In this document: positions 1 to 23,759 of the stretch, piece after piece
How the letters are laid out: every line of letters begins with the position of its first letter
Position numbering within the stretch: the stretch's first letter is position 1
Source of the DNA: Xanthomonas arboricola
Lineage (GTDB): Bacteria > Pseudomonadota > Gammaproteobacteria > Xanthomonadales > Xanthomonadaceae
Assembly (NCBI RefSeq): GCF_003353015.1
Contig: NZ_QREM01000007.1
Span: 253,086-286,214, forward strand
Direction of reading: 5' to 3'
Length of the DNA stretch: 33,129 nucleotides
Made by a program: the position numbers and the translations under genes
Notes under the pieces: generated by a model
What the model saw: the letters and a program-made list of their open reading frames with translations, nothing else
Databases searched by the model: none
What the model was told of the DNA's origin: nothing

Positions 1-97
1 TCGGTGAACTTGCTCTTGCGCATCGCTGGTCTCCTTGGTGGCTAGTGTGCCCGGAGACCTCTAACTATGGATGGACCAATTTTACGGGGAGCTGACA
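1..97 (-). mobile_element. Left end of an IS3-family insertion sequence with the start of its orfA
   Basis: Read on the minus strand, an ATG at 23-21 begins MRKSKFT and runs off the window edge. This is the usual opening of IS3-family OrfA (helix-turn-helix transposase subunit). An AAGGAGA ribosome binding site sits at about 30-36. Upstream of it the minus-strand sequence ends at a TGTCAGCTCCCCG-type terminus (97 to 85), which fits the 5'-TG start and C-rich pattern of IS3-family terminal inverted repeats. I therefore place the element boundary near 97, inside the RHS reading frame. The family call rests on seven residues and a terminus-like motif; the exact IS name and the boundary are inference. 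Confidence 0.55.
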
Positions 98-1641
98 GCG
101 GCAGCCGCCAACGTCTGCTGAGCGGAGCGACCTACTATCCGTTCGGCCCATCCTCCGGCTGGACCTACGGCAACGGCCGCAAGTTGGCGCGCAGGTACGA
201 TCAGGATTACCGGCCACAGAGCATCCAGGACACCCGCGCTGGCGGGCTGGAAATCGGCTTCGGCTTCGACGCCGTTGGCGACCTCACTGCGCTGACGCCG
301 GCCGGCAACCCAACACCAGAACTTCGTCTGGACTACGACGCGCTGGGCCGGCTGACAGCGTTGAAAGACGGCGCCGCCAATACCGTGATCGACGGCTACA
401 GCTACGATGCCACCGGCAATCGCCTAAGCGCCAAAGTTGGCGGTGCTACCCAAGCCTACACCTACCCGACCACCAACCACCGCCTGAGCGCAGTCGCAGG
501 CGTGGCGCGCACCTACGACAAGATGGGCAATACCCTCACCATCGGCGGCAAGGCACGCGAGTACCTGTACGACACCACCGCGCGCATGACCCAGGTCAAG
601 CGCGCAGGTGTCGCGGTCATGAACTACCGCTATAACGGCCGGGGTGAGCAAGTCCGTCGCTACCTGGGCACCACCAACACCTATACGCTCTACGACGAGG
701 CGGGCCATTGGCTCGGCGACTACGACACTAACGGTGCACCCAAGCAACAAGCGATCTGGCTGGATGACCTGCCGGTGGGCCTGTTGGCCAACGGTGGTCA
801 ACTGCACTATATCGAACCCGACCACCTAGGCAGCCCGCGTGTAGTCGTGGATGCCGCCCGCGACATTGCCGTGTGGAACTGGAGCCTGAAGGGCGAAGCC
901 TTCGGCAACACCGCGCCCAACCAGGATCCGGATGGCGATGGCGCCGCGATGGTGTTCGACATGCGCTTCCCAGGCCAGCGGTTTGATACAGCGAGCGGGT
1001 TCAATCAGAACTACTTTCGCGATTACGATGCGGCCACTGGTCGGTACGGGCAGAGTGATCCGATTGGATTAAGAGGGGGGCTGAATAGCTACTCATATGC
1101 TAACAATCGCCCGTTTTTCTCCTCTGATCCATTTGGCCTTCGTGCGCCATTTGCTCAAGAATCTGCTTTTATTGGCACTCTGTTCGGTAGCAGCTTCGAT
1201 ACTGCATCACTAGATATCCAGCAAGCATCGGGAAGCCGCGGCTCGTCTCTGCGTGGCAGCAATGTTAAGCTGCCACGAAGCCTTTTTATTGATGGCGATA
1301 TAGGTAAAGGCATCGACCTCAATAAAGTTGAAGCGCGCTCAACTCTTGCTCACGAGGTTTTTCATGTGTGGCAACGTCGTAGAGGTGCAAAGGTCACCTC
1401 ACGCCTCATACTTCCTCAGGTTGGATATACACTTGGCTTTGGAAGTCCCTATGATTACGCGAGTCCCTCTAGCGCTGAACAAGCATCTCAATACTTTAAT
1501 GCGCTTTTTGGAGATGGCAAGTACGAAGCACAGGCTCAGTTATGGGAAGATTCGTACCTTGCTAGCGACTCAAGTAGCTTAGCCGGGGAAATTTGGAATG
1601 CTTTGCAAAACGAGGTGCAAAATGGGTGCATGGGGCAATGA
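67..1641 (+). CDS. RHS-repeat protein C-terminal fragment with HExxH metallopeptidase-like toxin tip (5' end lost to an IS)
   Basis: RHS proteins are large secreted shells that deliver a C-terminal toxin. This is only the C-terminal part of one. YD-type repeats run from about residue 20 to 330 (YYPFGP, YGNGR, YDALGRL, YSYDATGNRL, DHLGSPR). The conserved core end follows, with DPIGL at 331-335 and DPFGL at 354-358. The last ~166 residues are the variable tip and are visibly AT-richer than the core. The tip contains H429-E430-V-F-H433, a zinc-metallopeptidase signature, and E487 in an EAQAQ context as a possible third ligand (gluzincin type). The first ~11 codons (MDGPILRGADS) appear to come from the end of an IS3 element, so the ATG at 67 is not the native start and a full RHS protein is not made. 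The overlapping lipoprotein gene behind it is the expected immunity position. The RHS core is certain; the protease activity is inferred from the motif. Confidence 0.85.
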   Translation: MDGPILRGADSGSRQRLLSGATYYPFGPSSGWTYGNGRKLARRYDQDYRPQSIQDTRAGGLEIGFGFDAVGDLTALTPAGNPTPELRLDYDALGRLTALKDGAANTVIDGYSYDATGNRLSAKVGGATQAYTYPTTNHRLSAVAGVARTYDKMGNTLTIGGKAREYLYDTTARMTQVKRAGVAVMNYRYNGRGEQVRRYLGTTNTYTLYDEAGHWLGDYDTNGAPKQQAIWLDDLPVGLLANGGQLHYIEPDHLGSPRVVVDAARDIAVWNWSLKGEAFGNTAPNQDPDGDGAAMVFDMRFPGQRFDTASGFNQNYFRDYDAATGRYGQSDPIGLRGGLNSYSYANNRPFFSSDPFGLRAPFAQESAFIGTLFGSSFDTASLDIQQASGSRGSSLRGSNVKLPRSLFIDGDIGKGIDLNKVEARSTLAHEVFHVWQRRRGAKVTSRLILPQVGYTLGFGSPYDYASPSSAEQASQYFNALFGDGKYEAQAQLWEDSYLASDSSSLAGEIWNALQNEVQNGCMGQ

Positions 1642-2942: not shown

Positions 2943-3266
2943 AGTTGCAGGGCAAACACCGGAGTTATCTTGCGCGCAAATGATGATCTGGGTGAGTTAC
3001 CTGAGGACTGGGCTCCAGAGCCACTTGGTCCAAGGGCAGATGTCCTGGCTGCAATCGGAAGTTGCGTGCCCGCTAAGGATGCCAGTTTGGCACTAGATTT
3101 CCGAGTCGAGGAACCTGAGGATAGCGAGGAGCCGCGGACCATATCCGTATCAGGCGCCTGGGGTTAAAGAGAGGCTGCAATGTTGCAGAGGCTGTGCAAC
3201 CTGCTTGGTGCGCGGTTCTACGATGCTGAGGCTGGGGATTTCATAGATTTAGTGCAGAAGGGGTGA
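2943..3266 (+). pseudogene. Hypothetical cassette-type protein interrupted by an in-frame TAA
   Basis: The frame is open from 2943 and reads NTGVILRANDDLGELP, then EPLGPRADVLAAIGSCVP and EPRTISVSGAWG before TAA at 3165-3167. The same frame continues beyond the stop as REAAMLQRLCNLLGARFYD and AEAGDFIDLV to TGA at 3264-3266. The downstream part reads as a natural continuation (helix, then ARFYDAEAGDFI), so the TAA is probably a point mutation, for example of a Glu codon. No ATG opens the frame, and a possible start at 2939 lies in another frame, so the N-terminus may also be damaged. The acidic, Pro-rich N-terminal half resembles small hypothetical proteins common in xanthomonads. Function unknown. 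Confidence 0.55.
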
Positions 3267-3300
3267 GATTTACTTAAAAGTCAACCTAGCCCTGTTTCCC
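3258..3300. repeat. Degenerate hairpin repeat copy
   Basis: AAGGGGTGAGATTTACTT (3258-3275) faces AAGTCAACCTAGCCCTGTTT (3278-3297) with several mismatches. It has the same layout as the other copies: a G-rich GTGAG/GTCAG arm, ACTT near the loop, and a T-run after the right arm. It overlaps the end of the broken gene. Confidence 0.45.
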
Positions 3301-3345
3301 ATTCCACATCTTCGCCCTCTGCATCCAGAGGCGTTGTAGAGTGGA

Positions 3346-3404
3346 GCCTATCAATCCACTCAAGCTGTACCCGCTTCACGGGAAGGCTTGATCAAACGTT
3401 AGGC
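3346..3404 (+). other. attC: attC recombination site (integron cassette), copy 1
   Basis: The site runs from GCCTATC (R'', one base from GCCTAAC) to GTTAGGC (R', a perfect GTTRRRY) over 59 bp. Inside, CAAGC at 3361 faces GCTTG at 3386, and CCCG...CGGG forms the central stem. This is the standard imperfect palindrome of integron attC sites. The next ORF starts 18 bp after R', the usual spacing in a cassette. Length, core sites and internal arms agree. Confidence 0.8.
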
Positions 3405-3421
3405 CTAAGCGGGGCACTCCG

Positions 3422-3931
3422 ATGAAACTTGCAGCACTCTTGGCCATTGCTTTAGCGAGCACCTTGCTTGCGGCTCCGCTAGCGCATGGCGGCAAGCTCA
3501 GGGTTAAGACAGATCAAGTCGTAGACCTGACACGATTCCTTGAGGAGAAGCCGCTTGACGAAAGCGCGCCGGCCATTCGCTCGCTCCTCATAGATTGGGA
3601 AAAGAAGAGCAAGGATGTAGTCGATTACGTTTGCCCAGGCGTACTTACACCAATTCTAGCGACCGATGTTCCCAACTCTGCAGAGCTATTGGTACAGTTC
3701 ATTTTTGGAAGCGCCGCGCATCAAATTGGCAACCCAAGCGACAAGGGGAAGGTCGTGCCCGGACAACTCGCTGGGATGCGCGGCATGCTCAAGGCTTATA
3801 GAGCGTTTCTTGTGGCGAATCCGGCGGCCCGGATCCCGAGACTAGACGAGCTAACTCAGATGAATGCTGCAGGAACATTGCCGGAGTACCTTGAGCCAAT
3901 CGTAGTGAAAGAATGCGGCCAAGGTTCTTGA
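3422..3931 (+). CDS. Exported hypothetical protein, integron cassette gene A
   Basis: A 169-residue protein with a clear Sec signal peptide (MKLAALLAIALASTLLAAPL, cleavage near AHG at 21-23). The mature part is helical, with two cysteines (VCPG in the middle, KECG at the end) that could form a disulfide, and it should be periplasmic. Features include a segment AELLVQFIFGSAAHQIG and a helix GMRGMLKAYRAFLVANP. It is bounded by attC sites at 3346 and 3933, so it occupies one complete cassette of about 589 bp. I do not recognise a named family. The start is fixed by the signal peptide and the short distance to the attC. Confidence 0.75.
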   Translation: MKLAALLAIALASTLLAAPLAHGGKLRVKTDQVVDLTRFLEEKPLDESAPAIRSLLIDWEKKSKDVVDYVCPGVLTPILATDVPNSAELLVQFIFGSAAHQIGNPSDKGKVVPGQLAGMRGMLKAYRAFLVANPAARIPRLDELTQMNAAGTLPEYLEPIVVKECGQGS

Positions 3932-3932
3932 A

Positions 3933-3993
3933 GCTTAGTCCAATCATTCAAGCCGAAGCCGATCCACGGCGCAGCTCAACTTAGGCGTTAGGC
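3933..3993 (+). other. attC: attC recombination site, copy 2
   Basis: GCTTAGT (R'', two changes from GCCTAAC) at 3933 and a perfect GTTAGGC (R') at 3987-3993 enclose CATTCAAGCCG, a GCCG...CGGC stem with loop ATCCA, and GCAGCTCAAC. The layout and bases match the classical class of attC (CAATTCATTCAAGCCG type). It begins one base after the stop codon of cassette gene A, and the next ATG is 9 bp downstream of R'. Confidence 0.85.
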
Positions 3994-4001
3994 TCACCAG
4001 C

Positions 4002-4595
4002 ATGTCTCGCATCGCTAGATACAGAACGGGTTATTTGCTTGTACTTGGCGCGCTAAGCGCGCTGACGTATACCGTGGTCCGCGCTGCAGGCGGCTCCAGC
4101 GCTGCATTACTTACGGTCGGCTTCCTGCTCCTCGTGCCTGGCAGACTTCAGGGCTTGCTGCTGCGGCCTCTGTTTCGAGGACAGCGCGCACTTGCTGAAG
4201 GCAAGCCTGAGGAGGCGGCCGTCCAGTTCCATCACCAGCTCACTCAGCTCCAAGCACAGCCATGGCGGCGTCTCGCACTCTGGCTAGGCTGGTCTACTTA
4301 TACTCCAAGCCTCGCTGCCATGGTGACCAACAACCTCGGAGTCGCTTATGCGGCGCGGGGTGAGCTTGAGCAGGCACAAGCTGCCTGGAAACATGCATTG
4401 GCGCTAGATCATCTGTACCCGGTTCCGTATGCCAACTTGGCTGCCGCAGCTGCCGCCCGTGGCGCTTCCGATGAGGGGCACTCGCTATTGTGCCAAGCAC
4501 GGAAGCTGGGCTACGGCGGCGGCCCTTTGGATCAGGCCACGCACCGAATGCAGCAATTACTAGCAGCCGTGGAGTCTCGCGGGCCTGCGTTGTGA
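4002..4595 (+). CDS. Membrane-anchored TPR-like protein, integron cassette gene B
   Basis: A 197-residue protein. Two adjoining hydrophobic segments at about residues 10-28 and 33-52 (YLLVLGALSALTYTVV; SAALLTVGFLLLVPG) anchor it in the inner membrane. The rest is a helical domain with tetratricopeptide-like repeats: RALAEGKPEEAAVQFHHQL at about 60, LGVAYAARGELEQAQAAWK at about 110, and YANLAAAAAARG at about 145. TPR domains bind partner proteins, so an adaptor role is possible, but the partner is unknown. It lies between attC copies 2 and 3 as a single-gene cassette. The ATG is 9 bp after the R' box. Confidence 0.75.
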   Translation: MSRIARYRTGYLLVLGALSALTYTVVRAAGGSSAALLTVGFLLLVPGRLQGLLLRPLFRGQRALAEGKPEEAAVQFHHQLTQLQAQPWRRLALWLGWSTYTPSLAAMVTNNLGVAYAARGELEQAQAAWKHALALDHLYPVPYANLAAAAAARGASDEGHSLLCQARKLGYGGGPLDQATHRMQQLLAAVESRGPAL

Positions 4596-4651
4596 GGCTC
4601 AATAATTCATCCGTGTCGACGCCGCCTTGCGGCGCTGCTCTTCTGTTGTCT
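4596..4651 (+). other. attC: Decayed attC-like site, copy 3
   Basis: Directly after the stop of cassette gene B comes GGCTCAATAATTCATCCG, close to the usual GCCTAACAATTCATTCAAGCCG start. A perfect stem follows, GCCGC CTT GCGGC, then GCTGCTC. The right core box is degenerate (GTTGTCT at 4645-4651 instead of GTTRRRY). Left half and stem are convincing; the site is probably inactive or weak. Confidence 0.6.
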
Positions 4652-4930
4652 CTCCAGCGTGCTTTGCTTGGTGAGACCCATCCACAGCTTAGACAAGCGT
4701 CTATTGAGGCTGATCCCGGGACAAGCGTTGTTCGTTTGCGATTTGAGTACGATGGAGAGCCTTCCAAGGCTGCGCTCGACAGCGGCTCATGCGCTGCAAC
4801 GGAAGTGATTGCTGACTTCCCGGCGCCGTGGAATTTAGATGATCAGCATGTTTCCGTGGCATATCCACACAAGCTTTCGGCGTTGGCCCATATTGCCTAC
4901 CGTCGTTGGGAGCCTGAGCATGCTGCCTAG
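4646..4930 (+). CDS. Small cytoplasmic hypothetical protein, integron cassette gene C
   Basis: The frame is open from 4490, but the part before 4600 lies inside gene B and the part to about 4645 inside the attC-like palindrome. I therefore favour TTG at 4646, giving MSLQRALLGETHPQLRQ and 94 residues; GTG at 4613 is an alternative. No hydrophobic stretch is present. The pattern LQRALLGE, then VVRLRFEYDGEPS, then TEVIADFP and AYRRWEP is familiar from small hypothetical proteins found in cassette arrays and next to toxins in Proteobacteria, but I know no biochemical role for them. The gene sits between attC copies 3 and 4. Confidence 0.65.
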   Translation: MSLQRALLGETHPQLRQASIEADPGTSVVRLRFEYDGEPSKAALDSGSCAATEVIADFPAPWNLDDQHVSVAYPHKLSALAHIAYRRWEPEHAA

Positions 4931-4960
4931 CGGCTAGTCTGTGTCCCGCAATCCGGCGGC

Positions 4961-5025
4961 GTACAGCAATTCATTCAAGTCGGCACCATTTCGGTGCACG
5001 GCGCACTTCGAAACATGGTGTGGTC
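4961..5025 (+). other. attC: Decayed attC-like site, copy 4
   Basis: CAATTCATTCAAGTCGG (4967-4983) matches the conserved left arm of this attC type almost base for base. It is followed by the stem CACC ATTT GGTG and then CACGGCGCACTT. The outer core boxes have diverged (GTACAGC on the left, GTGTGGT on the right). It lies between gene C and the DUF6869-like gene at cassette spacing. Confidence 0.6.
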
Positions 5026-5028
5026 AGA

Positions 5029-5418
5029 ATGCATGCATGGTCCAGCATTGAAGAGTGGGCGCATGCGTACATCCGCGTTCATGAGGCCGAGGCTTCACTG
5101 GATGATTCGCACCCGGACTATCTGGCTGCCTATGAGTTCATGGTGGAGCTGGTCGGTGAAGATGCAGAGCAATGTTGGGCCGGCATTCTTGAGGTAGTTC
5201 GGCGCCGGCCAACAGAGCGTGTGCTTGGTATGGTCGCCGCCGGGCTGGTCGAAGACTTGCTCGATGGCTCCGGTGCGGTATTCATTGAGCGCATCGAGGC
5301 GCAGGCAGGCACCGATCCCGTCTTTCGCAAGATGCTCCATGGCGCCTGGGAAAGCGGCACGCCAGAGGTCTGGTCGCGGTTCGTGGCAGCTCGTGGGGAG
5401 TTCGCAGATGCTGGCTGA
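5029..5418 (+). CDS. DUF6869-like protein, integron cassette gene D
   Basis: A 129-residue acidic, helical, cytoplasmic protein starting MHAWSSIEEW. A GTG at 5020 in the same frame is possible but falls inside the attC-like right box. Motifs typical of DUF6869 are present: AWAGILEVV-type helix (CWAGILEVVRRRP), AAGLVEDLLDGSG, FIERIEAQA and DPVFRKMLHGAW. The domain has no known function; members occur as single small genes in variable regions. It is the last gene of the cassette cluster; no attC-like site is seen after it, only a hairpin repeat at 5445. Confidence 0.7.
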   Translation: MHAWSSIEEWAHAYIRVHEAEASLDDSHPDYLAAYEFMVELVGEDAEQCWAGILEVVRRRPTERVLGMVAAGLVEDLLDGSGAVFIERIEAQAGTDPVFRKMLHGAWESGTPEVWSRFVAARGEFADAG

Positions 5419-5486: not shown

Positions 5487-5663
5487 CGCAGTGGCGCTGA
5501 GTCCGTGTTGACCTGTACCCCCAGGTGGTTGCTTCCTGACAATACGTTCAAGCCAAACCTGCCGCCGCGGATGTCCTCGCGCAGCTGCTGACGTTGCGGG
5601 CAAGTGGGATTGCCGAGTGTCACCGCACAGACAGGGCTGCCTGTTACTGGCCTTGGCCTGATC

Positions 5664-23617: not shown

Positions 23618-23759
23618 GAGCGGCTAGCAAAACGACTGCACAGCCCTCCGGCAGGCGCGGCCGGTGCTCGGAAGCAACATATGCCACGCATGCACTGCGA
23701 TTCTGGGTGTGCCGTCCGCACACAGTCGACTACCGCTCGCGACGCTGTGTCAGCCGCTC
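23618..23759. repeat. MITE-like element with GAGCGGCT/AGCCGCTC ends, copy 2
   Basis: A 142-bp segment bounded by GAGCGGCT (23618-23625) and its exact complement AGCCGCTC (23752-23759), followed by TTAGGCA like the copy at 20503. No protein-coding frame is credible inside. The rest of the gap (23576-23976) shows nothing else recognisable. Terminal repeats of this kind are compatible with a miniature non-autonomous transposable element; no target duplication is evident. Confidence 0.5.

Follow-up and report, generated by a model that had tools for sequence, protein, structure and literature searches.

An old, decayed attC cluster beside lamG in Xanthomonas arboricola and an attI-like module as candidate docking site at the head of such arrays

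How does a row of integron cassettes come to stand, and to stay, at a chromosomal site that has no integrase gene? The question is raised by 33,129 nucleotides of the Xanthomonas arboricola genome (GCF_003353015.1; 4.73 Mb in 24 contigs), positions 253086-286214 of contig NZ_QREM01000007.1 (C1), which we call the window and number from its first letter. A preliminary description made from these letters had placed at 2943-5418 a cassette cluster resembling a CALIN (cluster of attC sites lacking integron-integrases), a class that requires at least two attC sites in one orientation and no intI in the neighbourhood. Here, we provide evidence that the feature is a CALIN, old and decayed, and of the kind already published beside lamG in Xanthomonas, a classification that is well supported. 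New is an attI-like module at the head of the array, outside the window; the window itself holds a decayed example of the published kind of cluster. Such modules are probably orphan attI docking sites that would once have been filled in trans by IntI, and the copy in this genome is decayed, so that its array would now be frozen. Contigs are abbreviated C, fetched loci L and genomes of relatives G; L014 denotes C1:235000-254000.

The attC sites were scored with a covariance model, R1, built from the seven clean attC sites of the ilvD array on another contig (C20:59210-62096, minus strand, next to intI remnants) and run unfiltered over the whole window. As R1 was trained only on the C20 sites, it tests the window sites independently of the window. 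The sites are as follows.

3346..3404, plus strand: clear attC site (R1 35.8 bits, E 4.5e-7, model positions 1-60)
3933..3993, plus strand: clear attC site with a degenerate R'' box (R1 37.9 bits, E 1.3e-7)
4597..4649, plus strand: decayed attC site with marginal score, its box pairs broken and its 3' half eroded (R1 17.6 bits, E 0.026)
4961..5025, plus strand: possible attC relic, seen by eye as an attC-like left half only, with no R1 match

Both sites that had been called clear are thus confirmed, and three of the four proposed sites score, one of them marginally. Of the two sites proposed as decayed, the first holds as a marginal match and the second is absent from the 17 window matches of R1 at E<=10 with filters off, among which the best after the three scored sites has an E-value of 1.3. 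All three scored sites lie on the plus strand, in agreement with the single orientation described, and start codons at 3422 and 4002 stand 18 and 9 positions beyond the ends of the clear sites, within the 9-18 bp given before. A further attC candidate picked by eye at 5533-5600 was discarded, as R1 gave no match there.

The cluster is real and larger than 2943-5418: it begins at C1:248.37 kb, which is 4.7 kb beyond the left end of the window, and reaches to around window position 5514, so that the window contains its distal end only. A whole-genome DNA search with the region as query returned attC-like matches at two places, on C20 and 2.7 kb outside the left end of the window. In L014, where R1 finds five attC sites at E<=4.5e-6, four full-length sites in the same orientation start at C1:248373, 248683, 249931 and 250333 (39.7-84.1 bits), a site with a truncated 3' end lies at C1:251502 (33.5 bits) and a decayed one at C1:249386 (14.2 bits, E 0.48). 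The left neighbour is lamG (1282 aa, L014:8910-12758, Laminin_G_3 E 3e-9), which ends at C1:247757, 0.6 kb before the first scored attC and directly beside the cluster. A CN-hydrolase gene follows the right border, so that the cluster sits between lamG and this gene.

No intI was matched in the window or in L014 with eight intI proteins as queries (E<=1e-3), which extends the absence reported for the window. With clustered attC sites (two clear and one marginal in the window, more in L014) and no intI nearby, the earlier comparison to CALINs is borne out. Genome-wide, TIGR02249 gave seven matches, none above the 265-bit cut-off and the best at 75.5 bits; sub-threshold matches were also present in 14 of 14 control genomes, and those in long open frames are therefore taken as other tyrosine recombinases. 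The sole intI found, which also answers the call to locate the nearest one, is a broken remnant near ilvD on C20 (C20:62630-63018). It retains residues 15-83 and 280-315 only, one piece with a stop, and its DNA is about 90% identical to intact intI of relatives. We take the frame at C20:63166-63891 to be ilvD. Intact intI is absent, so the genome does not hold a complete integron.

According to the available text of Colombi et al. 2025 (PMC12444791), about half of Xanthomonas genomes have CALINs at sites other than ilvD, five species have them beside lamG and/or secF, and intI loss is widespread in the genus. In those parts of the paper CALINs are said to keep their positions, in contrast to scattered insertion at attG sites, and no cause at the sites is given. 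The present cluster agrees with the published lamG CALINs in genus, in the neighbour lamG, in an attC cluster without nearby intI, and in an ilvD intI that is kept or lost; the five mentions of attI in the available text do not concern these clusters (PMC12444791).

We compared 33 lamG loci of relatives (L017-L049), one genome per species, so that cassette comparisons are between species; one genome (G007) gave no lamG match. Tables of attC sites were taken at E<=0.1, 0.01 or 1 depending on the comparison. Of the 29 loci that could be evaluated, 25 have attC sites after lamG and on its strand, 12 of these 25 with an attI-like head, against the five species in the available text of PMC12444791. 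The 25 include L032, where attC sites appear only past the CN-hydrolase gene, 12 kb on. Four loci have no attC within at least 3.5 kb after lamG (L024, L028, L034, L037), and four others, whose contigs end less than 1 kb after lamG, were not evaluable (L018, L030, L039, L047). Among 54 more distant lamG loci, attC sites were found in four (L076, L077, L078, L120), all labelled Xanthomonas and with lamG identity of 77-80%; in the other 50, including L103 (labelled Xanthomonas, 66%), no site on the lamG strand reaches E<=1, and L100 has one upstream match on the opposite strand (E 0.67). As a separate observation, the 3' end of lamG comes in two versions across L014 and L017-L049, with a single breakpoint (L014:12626, C1:247625) 132 bp before the stop in this genome. 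An X. pisi contig (L054, apparently the same stretch as L041) has one version on a full lamG and the other on a fragment about 3 kb downstream, an arrangement as if a deletion between partial copies had swapped the tail.

The array of this genome is headed, left of the window, by a module of about 80 bp (C1:247905-247984), the last 29 bp of which resemble the attI core beside ilvD. DNA just past lamG recurs at other lamG loci and, in G020, away from its lamG. The array has the attC type (R1) and attI core of the sedentary chromosomal integron at ilvD in Xanthomonas, and differs from it in having no intI on the spot and an unrelated leader upstream of the core. We took intI-linked leaders from 18 loci of relatives and from this genome, and described the core by a position weight matrix (PWM) made from the fifteen that contain it (consensus CACCGCnTTTAGGCGGTCCAATAGTAGTTAG): 13 relatives and this genome beside ilvD, and L136 without an ilvD match, with the divergent L144 included; four leaders without the core were left out (L142, L143, L148, L150). 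Over 37 loci the PWM finds orphan-type sites in eight (L020, L023, L029, L036, L041 twice, L042, L047, L052); the nine sites score 9.3-24.1 bits and correspond to six lamG heads, a second copy in L041, an inner copy in L042, and L052. The best of 2,264,602 background positions in 50 more distant lamG loci reaches -6.6 bits. A further site, at the lamG locus of G010 with its ilvD-type leader and broken intI, scores 62.1 bits. In 20 aligned module copies, TTGAC and GAGGAT blocks are conserved at a constant distance from each other, with 17 bp between the hexamers of the consensus, and are followed by the core.

A second model, R2, is a sequence-only model of the whole module. Copies were counted at >=35 bits and when reaching the core; matches below 35 bits or short of the core were excluded beforehand (e.g., L018, cut by the contig end), copies in two overlapping loci (L022/L190) were counted once, and copies with less than 1.5 kb of sequence entered the count when they had an attC and were otherwise set aside as too short. 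R2 finds 30 copies, spread over 18 of the 35 genus genomes. According to R2, this genome has a head module, and so do 12 of the 25 attC-bearing lamG loci of relatives (L017, L019, L020, L023, L025, L026, L029, L036, L040, L041, L042, L044) and also L047, a locus too short to show attC. Together with nine copies outside the genus (from a 198-genome family sample under stricter filters) and three in L077, the total is 42. Thirty of 39 evaluable copies have an attC site within 1.5 kb downstream on the same strand, and three more lie too near a contig end. The chance of an attC in that span is 0.2%, from 490 attC in 174 Mb. The count is 23 of 27 for the genus alone, 14 of 21 for copies that were not in the training of R2, and 26 of 35 without four positives that have less than 1.5 kb of sequence. 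Grouped by the DNA that precedes them, the 30 genus copies occur in six contexts, with 16 of lamG type, nine of a second type, and then 2, 1, 1 and 1; among the 16, the copy in L052 now lies elsewhere and one is the second copy in L041. We further observed a 3.3-kb block, 84-91% identical, that is common to lamG regions (L021, L025, L042) and other array regions (L183:11099-14416, L184:9725-13044); in L042, L183 and L184 it is followed by an attI-like module.

We take G^TTAG to be the crossover point of attI and attC sites, and cassettes at orphan modules begin there, as judged from the alignments. Eleven lamG-type modules (55 pairs) are 71% identical over 40 bp to the end of GTTAG and 30% identical over the next 60 bp, and the first cassette is common to one of the 55 pairs. 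A 330-bp cassette with its attC is 98.2% identical (324/330) at the orphan module in G020 (L052) and at the ilvD attI of G030, where it is the first cassette. Its identity ends after the attC, and just before GTTAG the two stretches agree at only 19 of 24 bp; in lamG DNA the two genomes share 91% identity.

From these patterns we propose that the module of about 80 bp would be an orphan attI docking site, with TTGAC and GAGGAT blocks ahead of the core that resemble a cassette promoter. IntI encoded at ilvD would have acted in trans and joined circular cassettes to the orphan attI at G^TTAG, and the array could have grown cassette by cassette with no integrase gene on the spot. In this genome only an intI fragment, a decayed orphan core and an array split by an RHS/symE block now remain; cassettes should consequently be neither gained nor lost by this route, and the attC sites would be eroding. 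Our literature search, limited and mostly of abstracts, found no attI at the head of CALINs and, among the papers listed, no use of the term 'orphan attI'. Two other identities for the module were considered and set aside. A catalogued RNA was rejected because Rfam at gathering threshold on five loci found no family over the module (ALIL, sX9 and sRNA-Xcc1 matched elsewhere); in the window, Rfam found sX9 only. A gene-less promoter cassette was rejected because the 3' end is an attI core and not an attC, and is retained only as an idea on origin. Some lamG head modules are preceded by what looks by eye like the right half of an attC.

Several findings weigh against this proposal. A head module is missing from 13 of the 25 lamG loci of relatives that bear attC (in L022, modules occur only further inside), and nine of the 39 evaluable modules have no attC nearby. 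The orphan core of this genome is decayed, with five mismatches and one insertion against the 29-bp consensus and less than 8 bits in the PWM. Just six lamG heads reach 8 bits (L020, L023, L029, L036, L041, L047); the other head modules come from R2, whose training set is mostly lamG copies. That only these six pass the independent PWM slightly lowers our confidence in the full mechanism. Beyond the 29 bp, the lamG module shares little with the ilvD leader. A sigma-70 consensus scan of the head region of this genome found no promoter, and some matches to R2 cover only part of it (about positions 12-54) and have no core behind them; the promoter half may thus be a widespread motif and not part of an integron module. 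The sharing of a cassette between an orphan module and an ilvD attI is a single case. In the second context, five loci have the crossover box CCAG and keep the same first 150 bp of cassette at 95-98%; these sites are therefore not visibly active, and with the box lost the array looks frozen.

The alternative that fares best, although we consider it unlikely, is that the lamG array is a dead second integron, i.e., that a complete intI-attI platform at this site lost its intI and left attI and cassettes behind. G010 speaks for it: immediately behind lamG, L034:1342-2127 holds a broken intI (residues 11-84 and 190-315) together with a leader of ilvD type and an intact attI, and a different intI remnant stands at ilvD, 74.9% identical over 207 bp to the one at lamG. 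Further arrays in G006 (L194:17612-17884) and G034 (L193:12775-12834) carry an N-terminal fragment of intI, with full intI elsewhere in the genome and no ilvD match in the fetched stretches. However, among the 33 lamG loci of relatives, L014 and the window, intI is matched (E<=1e-3) only in L034 of G010, and the leader usually seen at lamG has no relation to that of ilvD outside the core. The lamG intI of G010 is moreover closer to ilvD intI of other species (up to 87-88%) than to the remnant at its own ilvD, which gives it the look of a later arrival.

Less probable still is insertion of cassettes at an ordinary secondary genomic (attG) site after lamG with no attI involved. Loot et al. (2024) are said to have described cassettes integrated at attG sites. 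The lamG arrays resemble such insertions in holding cassettes away from the integron platform, and the 13 attC-bearing lamG loci without a head module speak for this reading. The process is experimentally established in E. coli, as cited in the available text of PMC12444791. Yet where modules are present they carry an attI core at the insertion point, with cassettes starting right after, and the same locus is used throughout the genus, unlike the scattered attG insertion with which CALINs are also contrasted in the available text of PMC12444791. Very improbable, finally, is rearrangement debris, in which IS (insertion sequence), RHS or symE units would have moved a piece of the ilvD array and the module would be a conserved promoter with no recombination role: the 3.3-kb block common to lamG and other array regions, and a module in L187 that comes after an sRNA-Xcc1/symE-type unit, fit this reading, but one cassette at two types of attI, cut at both ends, points to site-specific recombination, and module copies occur in six upstream contexts.

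The remaining features of the locus in the window are listed here.

67..1641, plus strand: C-terminal part of an RHS-repeat protein (Pfam RHS_repeat E 2.5e-7, NCBIfam Rhs_assc_core 1.2e-16)
2948..3266, plus strand: distal part of the cassette closed by attC 3346-3404, with homologous DNA to 2948-3251 in lamG arrays L020 (79%) and L040 (83%)
3422..3931, plus strand: cassette open reading frame (ORF) of 169 aa with a signal-peptide-like start (by eye), no Pfam/NCBIfam match at E<=0.1
4002..4595, plus strand: cassette ORF of 197 aa, TPR-like (Pfam TPR_4 E 6.4e-6, just under the cut-off at 26.7 of 27 bits)
4638..4930, plus strand: remnant of a third cassette, of which 4638-4843 matches L022:15991-16194 at 86% identity, a stretch that follows lamG in G006
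5020..5418, plus strand: cassette ORF with DUF6869 (PF21746; Pfam E 2.7e-24, above cut-off)
5512..5516, no strand: right border of the species-variable region, where DNA homology resumes in L027, L031, L032, L045, L050 and L051

The RHS locus had been placed beside the cluster; the RHS/symE block in fact lies inside it and divides it, from about C1:251.55 kb, after the truncated attC, to about window 2.9 kb. It holds sRNA-Xcc1 (L014:17713-17795, Rfam), an RHS fragment and a symE-like frame, so labelled by eye and from its position next to sRNA-Xcc1. RHS DNA of about 90% identity lies downstream of lamG in L019, L023, L027 and L051. Past the core domain, the RHS protein at 67-1641 has by eye an HEVFH stretch that resembles a metalloprotease motif, where Pfam eCIS_core matches weakly (E 0.08). 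At the right border, a seventh locus (L040) resumes homology only at window 5680. Further right, at 23681-23755, lies the Xanthomonas sRNA sX9 (Rfam RF02228; 44.2 bits, just above the threshold of 44).

As to the cargo, the six upstream cassette ORFs are all without a Pfam family at E<=0.01, and the ORF at 4490-4930 has no Pfam match. The window cassettes at 2948-3251 and 4638-4843 have homologues in just two and one, respectively, of 36 fetched loci of relatives. Cassettes at the lamG locus vary between species. Neither of the two outcomes that the preliminary description had named as speaking against a cassette array, no site scored by a covariance model or a gene order fixed in all relatives, was observed.

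Beyond this genome, we see an even chance that promoter-attI modules, dispersed in at least six contexts, act as docking stations without an integrase of their own, such that one ilvD IntI would serve several arrays in trans and CALINs of this kind would be satellites of the sedentary integron and not debris. A copy of the docking site at the head of about half of the arrays compared would account for their possible filling by a distant IntI. The attI core at about half of the lamG arrays offers a simple and testable cause for CALINs staying put, namely that the docking site stayed. If this is true, a single integrase could fill and empty several arrays, each with a possible promoter, which would widen the role of the sedentary integron in Xanthomonas.

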